Below, piece after piece: positions 44,237 to 51,463 of a stretch of DNA of 51,463 nucleotides. A program made the position numbers and the translations under genes. Location of the stretch: NCBI GenBank assembly GCA_022825745.1, contig JAJDWF010000103.1, forward strand, positions 1-51,463, written 5' to 3'. Under the pieces are notes generated by a model. It made no database searches. It was not told the origin of the DNA and saw only the letters and a program-made list of their open reading frames with translations. Numbering within the stretch: position 1 is the first letter of the stretch; the number at the start of each line of letters is the position of its first letter. Origin of the DNA: Dehalococcoidia bacterium (GTDB lineage Bacteria; Chloroflexota; Dehalococcoidia; Lucifugimonadales; UBA3495).

Positions 44237-47200
44237 TTGAACGCGCTCCGGTCCCGCATACCTGGCCCCCTGCGTCATTTGTGGGGGGCTAATTTTTTGC
44301 TGGTGGCGCTGCTGGCGGTTGCGTTGGCGTTGCGCCTGTACGGGATCGACTGGGATGACGGCCACGGTTTCCATCCCGACGAGCGGTCGTTCTACATGCG
44401 GGCCGGCGATATGCTGTGCCTGCTCACGGCCGGGCTGGACACCGACGGTCCCTATTGCTCGGCGGCGCACCTGCGCTCCCTGCTGGCCGGCGACCAATTC
44501 CACGGGATCGAGCCGGGGCTGCCCGATCTGGGAACCGCGCTGTCCGCCGAGCGCAGCCCGCTGAATCCCCGCTGGTTCCCCCTGGGCAGCGCGCTGATCT
44601 ACGCTCTCGTCCTGCTGCGTACTTTGCTGGAGCCGTTCGTAGATTGGGGCGTAATAGAGCTTAGGTTCGCGGGGCGCACGCTGGCGGCGCTGGCCGACGT
44701 TGGATCCGTTTGGCTGCTTTACCTTATTGGCCGGCGCATGTACGGGAAATGGACGGGCATCCTGGCCGCCGCACTGACCACTTTCGCCGTCATTCACATC
44801 CAGCACGCCCACTTTTACCGGCCCGAGCCGTTCACCGTGTTGGCGTCGCTGTCTGCGTTGTGGGCGATGTTGCGGTTCGTAGATTCCGGGCGCGCCAGGG
44901 ACGGCGTGTTGCTGGGGGTGCTGGTGGGGCTGGCGATGGCGCCCAAGGTGTCGGTCGCGCCGATCCTGGCGCCCCTTGTGCTCACGTTCCTGTGGGTTGC
45001 CAAGGATCGCGCGCAACGAGAGTGGACGCAACTGAAGCCGGCTGACATCGCGCGTGTTGTCCCGGTGACCGCGCTGGCCGGCGTGGCGGCCCTGGCGACC
45101 TTTTTCATCACCACGCCCTACGCTTTCCTGGACTTCGCCAATTTCATCGGCGACATACGCGAGCAGGCTGGCATGGCCGGGGAGGCCGGCCGGTTCCCGT
45201 TCACATGGCAATATGCCGACACGCCGGCTTTCCTGTACCAGATTCGTCAAACGGCGGTTTGGGGACTTGGGCTGCCGCTGGGCATTGCCGTGTGGGTGGC
45301 GGTGCCCGTCACGGCATGGTTAGCTTGGCGCGGCGGCGTCAGCCAACGCTACGATCTGCTGCTGCTGGCGTGGGCGGTGCCCGCTTTTGTGTTCCTGGAG
45401 CTATTCGAGGTCAAGTTCCTGCGCTACGTGTTTCCGCTGATGCCGTTCTACATCCTGATGGCGGCGCGGATGCTGGTGGCTTTTGTGGTTTGGGGCCGGA
45501 GCCGTCAATGGCCGGTCGCTAGGGTCGCCGAACCTGCGCCCGACGACGCGCCGTTCTCGGAGGAGTGGCACGCCACGCCGCCCACCGTGGGCGACGATCT
45601 GATCTTCGACGAACCGCTGTTTGGCGACGATCCGTTCCCAGACGCGCCGTTTTCGGAGGAGTGGCACGCTACGCCGCCGCTGGCCGGCGCAACGGTCGCT
45701 GCGAATGCAGCGCGGCAATCCTCCGCACCTGTCATCGCGAGCGCAGCGTGGCAATCCCGTTGGAATGCAGTTGGTTCTCGCATCAACCGCTATGCCTATG
45801 CCGTCAGCGTCGCTACCGTCGGCATCGTCTTGGTGGCGACGGTCCTCTACGCCATCGCGTTCGTCGGCGTCTATGGCCGCACTCACACTGCCGTTGCCGC
45901 CTCGGACTGGATTAACGACAACGTTCCCCGCAATGCGTCCATCATCAACGGCGGTTCCTACTGGGACGAGCAGATACCCAACCTGCGCGGTTACGACGTC
46001 TGGACGTTCCCCGCCTATCACCCCGACCGGGATCTCGACAAAATCCCCGAACTGATCGAACGGCTGGCCGACGCCCACTACGTGGTCTTCTACTCCAACC
46101 GCGCCTATGGTTCGGTAGCGCGCCTGCCCGATGAGTACCCGCAGAGTTCCGCGTTCTACCGCCTGTTGTTCTCGGGAGATCTGGGCTATCAGCTAGTGCG
46201 GGCCTTTACGTCATACCCGACGCTGGCCGGCGTGCAACTGCGGGACGATCCCTATGGCCGGGCCGGGCTGGTAATGCCGCCCATCGCGCCGGACGGCAAC
46301 GACGGGCAGCCGGACGGCATCGTAATCAACCTGGGGTACGCCGACGAAAACGTTATCGGGTACGACCATCCGCAGGTGTTGATTTTCCGCAACGTGGAGC
46401 AACTGGCGGAGCGGCAGATACGGGACCGTATCAACGCGGCAGCAGAGTCCACGGCATCAACCGACGCCCCCCTGATGCTGTCGCCGTCCGCGCTGGAGGC
46501 GCAGCGGTCGGGTGGCACCTGGTCGGAGCTTTTCAACCGGAACGGTTGGGCCAATCGTGTGCCCTGGCTGTCGTGGCTGCTGGTGATCGAGCTGATCTGC
46601 CTGGCTGCCTTCCCGTTTACCTGGTGGTTGATGCGACCGCTGCCCGACCGGGGCGTCCTGTTCGCCCGTGTGCTGGGTTTGCTGCTGGTGTCGTGGGTGG
46701 CCTGGATGCTGGTGAACGTCGGCGTGTTGCGCTTTTCGGCGGGAACCGTGTGGCTGGCGATGCTCGTCGTTGCGATACCGTCCGCCGTTGTCCTCTGGCG
46801 ACAATGGCGACCGATACTTGACTGGCTGCGTGAAAAATGGCGGTTGGTGCTCACTGCTGAGGCGCTGTTCCTGCTGGCCTATCTTGCGTTCATCTTGGTG
46901 CGCGCCGCCAATCCCGACCTGTGGCACCCGTGGCGCGGCGGCGAAAAGCCCATGGAACTGGCCTACTTCACAGCGGTGGCGCGTTCCTCCGTGCTGCCCC
47001 CCTACGATCCCTGGTTCAGCGGTGGCTACCTGAACTACTACTACTGGGGTTATTTCATCCTCTCGGTTCCGGTGCGGCTCACGGGTATCCCGCCGGCCAC
47101 CGCGTTCAATGTTGCCGTGCCCCTGCTGTTTGCGCTGACGGCAGCGGGCGCCGGCTCGCTGGTGTACAACCTGGTAGAGGTCTCGGCTTTCCGGAGAAAG

Positions 47201-48991
47201 CGGGAATCCAGACGACGCATTTCCTTGGCACGGTGGGTTCCCGGCGGAGCGGCCATCGCCGGTGTTGCCGCCGCCGTCATGGCTACGGTGTCGGGCAATC
47301 TCCACGGGGTTGTTCAGCTGGCGGAGATGGCACAAAGGAAGATGCAGGGAATGGCTGCGCCCCTCTCAAGTTTCGATTTCTGGCGCAGTAGCCGGGCGAT
47401 ACCGGAAACCCCGGAATTTGAGCCATCGCGGCTTACTCCCTGGCTGGAAGCGGACAATTTCGTCGAAACGGGATTTCACATCACCGAGTTTCCGTTCTTC
47501 ACTTTCCTCTTCGCCGACCTCCATGCGCACATGATGACCATGCCCTTCGCCCTCCTGGCGTTGACGTTGGGGTTCGCCGTGCTGGTTGGCCTGAACCGGG
47601 CATCATTGCGCGCCCCATGGCCCTGGGCTGCCGTCTTGGTACTCGCCCTGGCGGTGGGCAGCCTGTGGGCGATTAATTCGTGGGAGTACCCGGCCTACGC
47701 TCTGCTGATGCTCGGGTGCGTAGCCGGGGCCGCGTGGATGATGCCGGGCCGGATCAGGACGCGCCTGGCGGTTGCAGCGGCGTTGAGCCTGTTGGCCCTG
47801 GCGGTGAGTTACGTTGCTTTCCTGCCATTCCATGCGGCGACGGAGACGTTCGGCACGGGTATCGAACCCACTCTTTGGCGCACTCCAATATCCAACTATC
47901 TGCTGATTCATGCTTTGCCGCTGATCGCGGCTGCGTGCCTGTTGTCCGCCACGCTGCCCCGCGCCATCGCTCCGGTGCTGGCGCGCGCAAAAGGGCAACG
48001 ATCCCTAGAGGCTCTGGACCAGTGGCTGCTGGTCGGCGTGGCCGTGGGCCTGCTCCTGGCCGGCTACTTCTGGGCGGCCGGGTTTATCACCGTCGGATTC
48101 CTCACCATCGCGCTCACGCTGACGGCGTGGGCGCTGGTGGCCTCCCTAGCGTCCGAAGAATATCCGGAGCGGCGCGCCGACCTGATGGCGCTGGCGATGC
48201 TGGCGATGGCCCTCGCTATCGGCATTGGTGTTGACCTCGTCCGCGTTGAGGGCGACATCGCGCGCATGAACACGCTGTTCAAGTATTATCTGGTGGCGTG
48301 GCTGTTGTTCGCAGCGTCCGGCGCTTACGGGCTGTGGCGAGGCTGGACGGCCGCCGCCACGGGCGGCAGATTCGTGCGCAACGCGCTCCGGGGAGTAGCG
48401 GCCGGCGTCCTTCTGGCCATCTTTGCCGGAACCCTGGTCTATCCCGCGCTGGCTACCCCGGTTCGCATCGCCGACCGGTTCAACCCTCTGCCGCCGACGC
48501 TGGACGGGACCGCCTGGATGCCGGCCGCCGTGTATCACCCGCCGGACTGGTGCGCCGAAACGCTCCTGGAACCCATCGAACTCAAATGGGATTACGAGGC
48601 GATTCGCTGGCTTCAGGACAACGTCTCGGGGACGCCGGTGGTGCTGGAAGGGCACGGCATCCAATACTGCTGGAACAGCCGCGTTGCGCAGTACACAGGT
48701 CTGCAGACCGTCCTGGGCTGGCCCTGGCACCAGCAGCAGCAGCGCGGCGACGGCGAAATCGTCCGCCGGCGCGCCCGGGACGTGGAGACCATGTACAACA
48801 CGCCCAGCCACGACCGGGCGCGGGAGTTGCTGGAACGGTATCGCATAAGCTACATCGTCGTCGGGGCTTTGGAACGCGGCTACTACGGCGAGCGGGGAAT
48901 TGCCAAGTTCGATGCTATGGTCGAAAAAGGTTCGTTGACCCTGGCCTACGGCAACGATGGCACGCGCGTCTATCGAGTGCGGGGTAATTGA
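44237..48991 (+). CDS. giant membrane protein: GT39-like glycosyltransferase fused to DUF2298 (Chlor_Arch_YYY)
   Basis: 1584 residues, probably TTG start. The N-terminal half (about 1-720) has a polytopic PMT/ArnT-like fold with the acidic HPDERSFYM loop and multiple hydrophobic helices, typical of polyprenyl-phosphate-sugar-dependent glycosyltransferases. The C-terminal half (about 760-1584) has the Chlor_Arch_YYY domain with the YYYWG motif (LNYYYWGYFILSVP, about residue 932). Residues about 425-510 form an acidic insert with a duplicated DAPFSEEWHATPP and repeat-derived sequence. A second insertion at about 983-995 (AFRRKRESRRR) is also repeat-derived. It probably modifies surface glycans or lipids. 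Confidence 0.85.
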   Translation: MNALRSRIPGPLRHLWGANFLLVALLAVALALRLYGIDWDDGHGFHPDERSFYMRAGDMLCLLTAGLDTDGPYCSAAHLRSLLAGDQFHGIEPGLPDLGTALSAERSPLNPRWFPLGSALIYALVLLRTLLEPFVDWGVIELRFAGRTLAALADVGSVWLLYLIGRRMYGKWTGILAAALTTFAVIHIQHAHFYRPEPFTVLASLSALWAMLRFVDSGRARDGVLLGVLVGLAMAPKVSVAPILAPLVLTFLWVAKDRAQREWTQLKPADIARVVPVTALAGVAALATFFITTPYAFLDFANFIGDIREQAGMAGEAGRFPFTWQYADTPAFLYQIRQTAVWGLGLPLGIAVWVAVPVTAWLAWRGGVSQRYDLLLLAWAVPAFVFLELFEVKFLRYVFPLMPFYILMAARMLVAFVVWGRSRQWPVARVAEPAPDDAPFSEEWHATPPTVGDDLIFDEPLFGDDPFPDAPFSEEWHATPPLAGATVAANAARQSSAPVIASAAWQSRWNAVGSRINRYAYAVSVATVGIVLVATVLYAIAFVGVYGRTHTAVAASDWINDNVPRNASIINGGSYWDEQIPNLRGYDVWTFPAYHPDRDLDKIPELIERLADAHYVVFYSNRAYGSVARLPDEYPQSSAFYRLLFSGDLGYQLVRAFTSYPTLAGVQLRDDPYGRAGLVMPPIAPDGNDGQPDGIVINLGYADENVIGYDHPQVLIFRNVEQLAERQIRDRINAAAESTASTDAPLMLSPSALEAQRSGGTWSELFNRNGWANRVPWLSWLLVIELICLAAFPFTWWLMRPLPDRGVLFARVLGLLLVSWVAWMLVNVGVLRFSAGTVWLAMLVVAIPSAVVLWRQWRPILDWLREKWRLVLTAEALFLLAYLAFILVRAANPDLWHPWRGGEKPMELAYFTAVARSSVLPPYDPWFSGGYLNYYYWGYFILSVPVRLTGIPPATAFNVAVPLLFALTAAGAGSLVYNLVEVSAFRRKRESRRRISLARWVPGGAAIAGVAAAVMATVSGNLHGVVQLAEMAQRKMQGMAAPLSSFDFWRSSRAIPETPEFEPSRLTPWLEADNFVETGFHITEFPFFTFLFADLHAHMMTMPFALLALTLGFAVLVGLNRASLRAPWPWAAVLVLALAVGSLWAINSWEYPAYALLMLGCVAGAAWMMPGRIRTRLAVAAALSLLALAVSYVAFLPFHAATETFGTGIEPTLWRTPISNYLLIHALPLIAAACLLSATLPRAIAPVLARAKGQRSLEALDQWLLVGVAVGLLLAGYFWAAGFITVGFLTIALTLTAWALVASLASEEYPERRADLMALAMLAMALAIGIGVDLVRVEGDIARMNTLFKYYLVAWLLFAASGAYGLWRGWTAAATGGRFVRNALRGVAAGVLLAIFAGTLVYPALATPVRIADRFNPLPPTLDGTAWMPAAVYHPPDWCAETLLEPIELKWDYEAIRWLQDNVSGTPVVLEGHGIQYCWNSRVAQYTGLQTVLGWPWHQQQQRGDGEIVRRRARDVETMYNTPSHDRARELLERYRISYIVVGALERGYYGERGIAKFDAMVEKGSLTLAYGNDGTRVYRVRGN
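45545..45678 (+). repeat. 96-bp-spaced coding direct repeats
   Basis: GACGCGCCGTTCTCGGAGGA (45545) and GACGCGCCGTTTTCGGAGGA (45641) start two copies that both encode DAPFSEEWHATPP within the giant membrane protein. It is a recent partial duplication. Confidence 0.8.
45697..45759 (+). repeat. two R2-type repeats inside a coding sequence
   Basis: GCTGCGAATGCAGCGCGGCA with ATCC (about 45699-45722) and GTCATCGCGAGCGCAGCGTG with GCAATCC (45731-45757). They are in-frame and are translated as NAARQSS and ASAAWQSR. They sit in the hydrophilic insert of the DUF2298 protein. Confidence 0.75.
47186..47212 (+). repeat. R1-type repeat inside a coding sequence
   Basis: CTTTCCGGAGAAAGCGGGAA with TCCAGAC, in frame in the DUF2298 protein, is translated as FRRKRESR. 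It shares GCGGGAATCCAG with the R1 copy at 11652-11690. Confidence 0.7.
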
Positions 48992-50189: not shown

Positions 50190-50732
50190 TTATCTGTCCA
50201 CCAGGCAGGCGATCACTTGTGGGGCAGCCGTTGCTGCCCGTTCCGACAGTTCGCCGTCATTGAGGGTGACGATGGGGTGCTCGATGATGGCCAGGCCGTA
50301 CTCCGGGTCGCCGCGCATTCGGGACATGGCGTGCGCCTGGCTGATGAACGGACGGGTGGTCAACACGGTTGAGGGGATGCCCACCAGTTCGGTTTCCATT
50401 GCGTCGTGCACACTGCACGCGGTGCAGGACCCTCATTCAGCGGTAGCGTGTATTGCCACGTCGATGCTCTTGGCCGTGCGTTGCAGGTCCTCGATGCGGG
50501 CCGGCCACTGCCAGCCGCCCTTGTTGTGTTCTACCGTGCCGGCGATGTCATAACGCTCGCCGATGATGGCGGCGATGCGTCGCAGCAGGTCTTCCGAGTG
50601 GGGCTTGTTGTTGGCGAACAGCCCGATTACCCTGCCGTCGAGCGTCGCCGGCCGCTGCGCCAGCCGCGCCGGAGCCTGCGGCCCGTCGTCGCGGGGGTCC
50701 ATTGTGATGATTGAGGCGCCGTTTGTGGTCAT
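50190..50732 (-). CDS. UGSC-family selenoprotein with in-frame UGA
   Basis: Reading UGA 50433-50435 as selenocysteine joins two frames into a 180-residue protein from the ATG at 50732 (AGGAGG Shine-Dalgarno). Sec100 is in AIHATAE-U-GSCTACSVHDAME, exactly the U-G-S-C motif that defines the UGSC family, which was described from marine metagenomes. The N-terminal part (RVIGLFANNKPHSEDLLRRI) is a short sheet-helix unit, and downstream residues (TELVGIPSTVLTTRPFISQA) continue the family pattern. A SECIS-like hairpin follows the UGA. Function is unknown; a thiol- or selenol-dependent redox or reductive step is likely. A related upstream gene ends 42 bp before it. Confidence 0.9.
50405..50419 (-). 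promoter_or_regulatory. candidate bacterial SECIS element of the UGSC gene
   Basis: In the mRNA a 6-bp perfect stem CGUGCA/UGCACG encloses a GUG loop. Nineteen nucleotides separate the UGA from the apical loop, within the bacterial range (16-37 nt), with G as the first loop base. Loop size 3 is at the lower end. Confidence 0.65.
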
Positions 50733-50774
50733 TGGATAACCTCCTTTTGTCTCTCCAAGTCCTGTGGTAATAGG

Positions 50775-51463
50775 CTAGGGTACTGCCACCCGCCGCGTTA
50801 CCGAGCGGCTGCTGCCCCAGGTGCTAATCAGGGTGACGAACCCGCCGGCCATGCCGCCGCCCGGCAGGACGGTAATGCGGTCGGCGTCGGCTACTACCGG
50901 AACCATGCGGTCGTGGTCCAATTCGTGGCCCATGCGGTGCCAGCGCATCCACTCGGCCACCGGCAGCTGGGCCTTCTCGTGCAGGAACTCCGCCACCCGC
51001 TGCCGCGACCAGCCGGCTTCTGCGATGTGCAGCATGGCCTCCGGGCTGATGACGCAGATTACCTCGGGCATACCGGGGCCGAAAGCCAGCATGGAGTGGG
51101 CCACGGTGGTCAGAAAGTCGGCAGGATCCCGGTCGCCGTGCAGGGTGACCTGCAACGGCCCCAGCGTAGCGTAGGCGGTCACTATCGTGGCGTCGTCGCC
51201 GTAGCCCAGTTCCGAGGCCAGCGACGGCCAGGGGCTGATCGCCAGGTTCTCGGGGAAGCAGAACGTGATCTTGCCGGGATGCCCGAAGGTGCTGTTGTCC
51301 ATCACCACCGGAACCGACCCGTAGAAATTGGCCTTGAACAGGTTGACCGCCCGGCCGATGGCGGCGTTGGCCCGGCTGCCGTTGCCCATCATCTCGACGC
51401 CGCCGTTCATGCCGATGGCGTCGGCGTAGGGGCCGCTGACCATCGTGAGCACGGTCACGCCAT
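50775..51463 (-). CDS. conserved-looking protein upstream of the UGSC selenoprotein (5' end outside window)
   Basis: At least 229 codons are open to the right edge. A GTG at 51458 is probably internal because the frame continues with a Gly codon. Features are VSGPYADAIGMNGGVEMMG, VVMDNSTFGHPGKITFCFPE, LASELGYGDDATIVTAYATL, EVICVISPEAMLHIAEAGWS and an RWHRMGHELDHD stretch. No known fold motif is recognised. It precedes the UGSC gene by 42 bp on the same strand, so the pair is likely co-transcribed and may form one enzyme system. It is not a simple oxidoreductase by pattern. Function unknown. Confidence 0.7.
   Translation of the reverse strand, partial: GVTVLTMVSGPYADAIGMNGGVEMMGNGSRANAAIGRAVNLFKANFYGSVPVVMDNSTFGHPGKITFCFPENLAISPWPSLASELGYGDDATIVTAYATLGPLQVTLHGDRDPADFLTTVAHSMLAFGPGMPEVICVISPEAMLHIAEAGWSRQRVAEFLHEKAQLPVAEWMRWHRMGHELDHDRMVPVVADADRITVLPGGGMAGGFVTLISTWGSSRSVTRRVAVP

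Follow-up and report, generated by a model that had tools for sequence, protein, structure and literature searches.

Analysis of a stretch of 51,463 nucleotides from a Dehalococcoidia bacterium (contig JAJDWF010000103.1, referred to here as the window) revealed a gene that, judged from its sequence, is almost certainly a genuine UGSC-family selenoprotein of SAR202-type Chloroflexota. The UGSC family was known by 2008 at the latest and the window gene is a further member of it; the new lead is the pairing. UGSC is nearly always encoded beside an unnamed second protein, and the pair thereby looks like a selenium-dependent reductase. The following features have been identified:

50190..50732, minus strand: UGSC-family selenoprotein gene, 180 aa with selenocysteine (Sec) at residue 100 (translation, PF24696 match, pN/pS)
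50433..50435, minus strand: in-frame UGA read as selenocysteine (TGA in 9/9 close orthologues and 9/9 paralogues of the same genome)
50424..50435, minus strand: U-G-S-C motif, a U-x-x-C redox pair Sec100/Cys103 (sequence)
50405..50419, minus strand: SECIS-type hairpin CGUGCA-GUG-UGCACG, 6 bp with a GUG loop (kept pairs, synonymous constraint)
50740..50746, minus strand: Shine-Dalgarno sequence AAGGAGG, 7 nt 5' of the ATG, with a similar site in orthologues
50775..51463, minus strand: partner gene of an unnamed family of ~340 aa, last 228 residues and stop, cut by the contig end (translation)

The UGSC gene and the decoding of its UGA

The UGSC frame runs from an ATG at 50732-50730 to a UAA terminator at 50192-50190, and the UGA at 50435-50433 is its sole internal stop. 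The first-pass annotation had placed a UGSC-family selenoprotein at 50190-50732 without giving the strand; the locus holds, with the gene on the minus strand. The family assignment is borne out by the joined product, which matches the Pfam model UGSC (PF24696) at 142.5 bits (E 1.9e-41, residues 11-178), the gathering cut-off being 25 bits. As had also been described, a strong Shine-Dalgarno sequence precedes the ATG, and GGG UCC UGC (50432-50424) directly follows the UGA, giving A-E-U-G-S-C at residues 98-103. Sec/Cys100, Gly101 and Cys103 are invariant in the family alignment, and the window protein carries the U/C-G-S-C motif. It shares with the UGSC-containing selenoprotein family this motif, the size, and a UGA with a SECIS-type hairpin, but has E before U where the rest of the family usually has D. 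The NCBIfam equivalog NF041046 (UGSC_fam) scores 109.2 bits, under its curated cut-off of 125, and the window's UGSC is thus a divergent family member.

Both flanks of the UGA had been called coding, and purifying selection is indeed found on each side. Compared with nine close orthologues (L080-L088), pN/pS is 0.05-0.19 upstream of the UGA and 0.05-0.09 downstream, i.e. below 0.2 throughout, at a pS of 0.24-0.59; the segment 3' of the UGA is therefore selected as protein. The perfect 6-bp hairpin reported earlier at 19 nt after the UGA was recovered as well, but 19 nt is the distance to its apical loop, and the stem starts at 13 nt. All six pairs form in 101/103 distinct UGA-containing sequences, and compensatory variants occur at the fifth pair (C-G to G-C or U-A) and at the third (U-A to C-G). 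The strongest evidence for constraint on the hairpin at the RNA level comes from its codons: AGT encodes the +7 serine in 95/95 sequences, against a background share of 7.6% among the serine codons of these genes and the partner genes, and TCG encodes the +5 serine in 67/67 (background 0.193). The loci for this test were mostly retrieved by peptide pattern, which fixes the residues and leaves the codons free. Cys homologues retain two to six of the six pairs, and Rfam gave no SECIS match at its gathering threshold.

Homologues bear Sec or Cys at the position of the UGA, and the genome encodes SelA, SelB, SelD and a tRNA-Sec with anticodon TCA; the absence of either had been named by the first-pass annotation as counting against it. 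SelA was found in 122/144 genomes of relatives, and the nine UGSC-bearing genomes lacking a SelA match are all below 90% complete. The SelD gene of the same genome (L012 1501-2424, C57) has one in-frame TGA, and SelD is thus probably a selenoprotein too.

Standard gene calling terminates at the UGA, as it should if this codon were a true stop and the downstream frame a remnant. Selection past the UGA equals that before it, however, the UGA is invariant in orthologues and retained in all nine copies of the genome, and the hairpin codons are frozen. A genuine stop was ruled out by these frozen codons and the selection beyond the UGA, and its probability is negligible. The PF24696 match, the invariant UGA, the two-sided selection, the RNA-level constraint and the Sec machinery jointly argue for a genuine UGSC selenoprotein. 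The cell's own SelA, SelB, SelD and tRNA-Sec would decode the UGA at the hairpin just 3' of it, a step strongly supported in silico.

The product would be a three-layer alpha/beta protein of ~20 kDa in which Sec100, within U-x-x-C, starts a helix. In the predicted model (pLDDT 90.3) a strand-helix order is repeated five times and Sec100 follows strand 3 and precedes the next helix; the structural neighbours of the model are flavodoxin/Rossmann-like and unspecific. The model does not favour the thioredoxin-like fold proposed in 2008. No thioredoxin-fold or GrdB-type entry is present among the structural matches listed, an absence that is no proof.

The partner protein and its pairing with UGSC

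The partner gene ends 42 nt ahead of the UGSC ATG. Its truncated product matches the partner profile at 308.7 bits (profile positions 104-342), and a full-length orthologue adjoins UGSC in L080, L081 and other loci. On annotated plasmids, Cys-form UGSC genes likewise adjoin a hypothetical protein of ~340 residues. The partner was found beside UGSC for 9/9 copies of the genome itself, at 36/39 whole-genome loci, and at 75/80 loci of a second collection, two of whose five exceptions are near contig ends. Among 144 genomes, the UGSC-bearing and partner-bearing sets are identical (92 genomes). Copy numbers are equal in 73 of these 92, with a Spearman coefficient of 0.98, the P value of which overstates independence, as the genomes are related. 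Furthermore, UGSC and the partner are fused in a single frame in the same genome (L062), on an Acidovorax IncP plasmid (L064), and in Vibrio (L174), Sporomusa (L176) and Variovorax boronicumulans (L177). UGSC and its partner very probably constitute a functional unit, as far as sequence comparison can tell. From co-occurrence, adjacency and fusions we infer a physical complex, in which UGSC would work with the upstream-encoded protein as a two-subunit enzyme.

A fusion named UGSC/Unknown_1, in which a conserved domain is joined to UGSC, appears in a 2008 marine survey (PMC2398784, Figure S1A), and this domain may be the same as the present partner. The available part of that survey reports it as a fusion, with no mention of a near-obligate pairing; such a partner is also absent from the UGSC-family descriptions in the available parts of PMC2398784, PMC9402790 and PMC13188914.

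The partner has no meaningful match in Pfam or NCBIfam, and its near-invariant motifs are N-x-V-M-A-G-C, G-R-A-N-A-x-I-G-R-A and a C within K-x-x-x-C; Cys64 and Cys162 are conserved. Structural matches to its confidently predicted model (pLDDT 92.7) are weak (TM about 0.3, VIA-align Z at most 6.4): they are cyclic amide hydrolases and class I fumarate hydratase, while one part resembles chorismate mutase; none of these fold assignments was adopted. Searches by sequence for solved homologues gave nothing significant for UGSC or the partner.

The Sec-form fusion on the conjugative IncP plasmid of Acidovorax sp. T1 (L064 5992-8490) is annotated merely as a short hypothetical protein, and its partner end seems to be swapped for an unrelated, perhaps transposase, sequence. 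L087 carries an orthologue of the window UGSC with no partner within reach and a TrxR-like gene upstream, and in L092 the partner is split across frames, as if frameshifted. Plasmids of Halalkalicoccus (L067) and Halorientalis (L169) encode partner-size hypothetical proteins on both sides of UGSC, both confirmed as partner copies in L067; in Haladaptatus (L170) the partner is present and no UGSC motif was found nearby.

Paralogues and gene neighbourhoods

The genome holds nine UGSC copies, each with a single UGA, and family copy number reaches 13 per genome. Between the window's UGSC and the remaining eight, identity is 23-34%, and in the tree the nine are scattered among copies from other Chloroflexota, several long branches being uncertain; this separate placement and the low identity indicate old paralogues, which probably act on different substrates. 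The closest named loci belong to Chloroflexota metagenome-assembled genomes (88-96% identity), including one from a SAR202 cluster bacterium (91%), and several of these genomes look sponge-associated from their isolate names. A paper on SAR202 paralogue expansion (PMC6946804) has no word starting with "selen" in its main text, and among open-licence papers, some judged by title, none on SAR202 and selenoproteins or selenocysteine was evidently on the subject.

In other relatives, a UGSC gene on plasmid pFER4 of Paracoccus ferrooxidans (L171 4423-4992) contains an in-frame UGA, keeps its hairpin intact and has been annotated as two hypothetical genes; selB is found ~4.4 kb away on that plasmid. 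The Cys-form UGSC on a plasmid of Arthrobacter sp. ERGS1:01 (L065 5926-6738) bears a C-terminal NifU-like domain (27.2 bits).

The context of the window orthologues, their sequences being recognised by eye, gave no readable function from genes beyond the partner. On the plus strand of the window, a long open frame at 44237-48991 encodes 1584 aa, and its L089 orthologue looks by eye like a large membrane protein. Orthologues of the genome's copies L054 and L056 are found in L121-L145, and many of them have neighbours that by eye resemble genes for NuoE/NuoF/NuoG-type subunits and for an enzyme of the 3-hydroxyisobutyrate dehydrogenase type.

In other phyla, thioredoxin-type neighbours were found at six of about fifteen non-Chloroflexota loci. 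The gene order in Arthrobacter is trxB-trxA-partner-UGSC; trxB lies beside the pair in Arthrobacter, Variovorax SRS16 and Roseovarius, all three above the thioredoxin reductase (TrxR) cut-off, and TrxR-like genes adjoin it in Haloterrigena, Variovorax boronicumulans and, by a custom profile, a deltaproteobacterial metagenome-assembled genome. With few such genes per genome, a TrxR neighbour is expected by chance at under 1% of loci, a rough figure and not a formal test. At SAR202-type loci TrxR is adjacent in only 3/80. The remaining neighbours in other phyla concern organic-acid catabolism and uptake (CoA-transferases, tripartite tricarboxylate and TRAP transporters, PEP-mutase and ComA families), with no common substrate among them.

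Fusions with Met at the Sec position (D-M-G-T-S) are encoded on plasmids of Vibrio europaeus (L174 4374-6059) and Sporomusa termitida (L176 4323-6047). In both loci, aconitase X and DUF126 genes lie close by, and the L174 relative of aconitase X gave a below-cut-off match to cis-3-hydroxy-L-proline dehydratase. Not every relative, then, uses this redox residue.

The reductase reading and its alternatives

Profile comparison aligned UGSC with GrdB-type proteins of related genomes at a probability of 85-89% (E 2e-6 to 6e-6), Sec on Sec, while 25 column-shuffled controls reached at most 0.9% (E 0.064). The alignment spans mainly the Sec region, which on this basis appears remotely homologous to that of GrdB-type reductases; the PrdB profile matched weakly (10-16%). 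GrdB (glycine/betaine/sarcosine reductase) and PrdB (D-proline reductase), of the PF07355 group, thus resemble UGSC in a profile-aligned strand-Sec-helix element. These enzymes are two-subunit, as proposed for UGSC and its partner, and thioredoxin system genes occur in other UGSC clusters. Unlike GrdB, UGSC has no full GrdB domain: a Pfam scan gave no PF07355 match, and the NCBIfam GrdB/PrdB models scored only about 12 bits. The partner is also different. Its comparison with the GrdE profile gave E 0.86, a Pfam scan gave it no match, and it was ruled out as a GrdE/PrdA-type or GrdB part by the lack of profile similarity to GrdE, GrdB, PrdB and PrdA. Several relatives of the same family or order (L068-L076, L160-L167) hold full-length GrdB-type selenoproteins, some also GrdE/PrdA-type proteins; the genome itself has only a short PrdB-like match.

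The remote GrdB homology and the TrxA/TrxB neighbours in other phyla make it somewhat more than evenly probable that UGSC is the Sec/Cys subunit of a two-subunit, thioredoxin-fed reductase formed with the partner. The pair's most likely reaction would be the Sec100-dependent reduction of a small organic compound, after which thioredoxin and thioredoxin reductase would reset the Sec-Cys bond so formed. The best joint explanation, a Sec-decoded UGSC acting with its partner as a thioredoxin-reset reductase whose paralogues have different substrates, is considered moderately probable.

The Met-for-Sec fusions beside aconitase X genes weigh most against a purely reductase reading. They would fit a hydratase- or lyase-type enzyme acting on hydroxy or enol acids, with Sec as a secondary redox switch or nucleophile and not the site of net reduction; the partner's weak best matches, class I fumarate hydratases and cyclic amide hydrolases, and the aconitase X, PEP-mutase and ComA family genes among the neighbours point the same way. 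Those structural matches are poor, however, and redox turnover is favoured by the thioredoxin and TrxR neighbours and by a Sec/Cys residue that does not vary in most members, which leaves a hydratase or lyase unlikely. A stand-alone thioredoxin-like thiol oxidoreductase, reducing peroxides or disulfides beside an incidental neighbour, is more doubtful still. It follows the 2008 marine survey, the available part of which suggests a thioredoxin-like fold, and would suit the U-x-x-C motif and the TrxR genes nearby. The predicted five-fold strand-helix repeat is of flavodoxin/Rossmann type, however; the partner is near-obligate and matched in copy number; and the presence of several old paralogues in one genome hints at diverse substrates. 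The thioredoxin-fed reductase formed by UGSC and its partner is retained as the preferred reading.

UGSC accounts for 8.2% of selenoprotein genes in the available part of an updated ocean survey, which places it among the most abundant marine selenoproteins (PMC9402790), and a 2026 review, in its available part, describes such families as still largely uncharacterised (PMC13188914). The partner, the reductase-type Sec region, the thioredoxin neighbours and the Cys forms that occur naturally in haloarchaea and cultivable bacteria make the old UGSC question experimentally approachable. Tentatively, and at slightly under an even chance, UGSC and its partner may represent a Sec- or Cys-dependent, thioredoxin-fed reductase class, separate from the glycine and proline reductases, that has diversified within SAR202-type Chloroflexota, where one genome may carry up to 13 copies. 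If so, the truncation of gene calls at the UGA would have concealed it.
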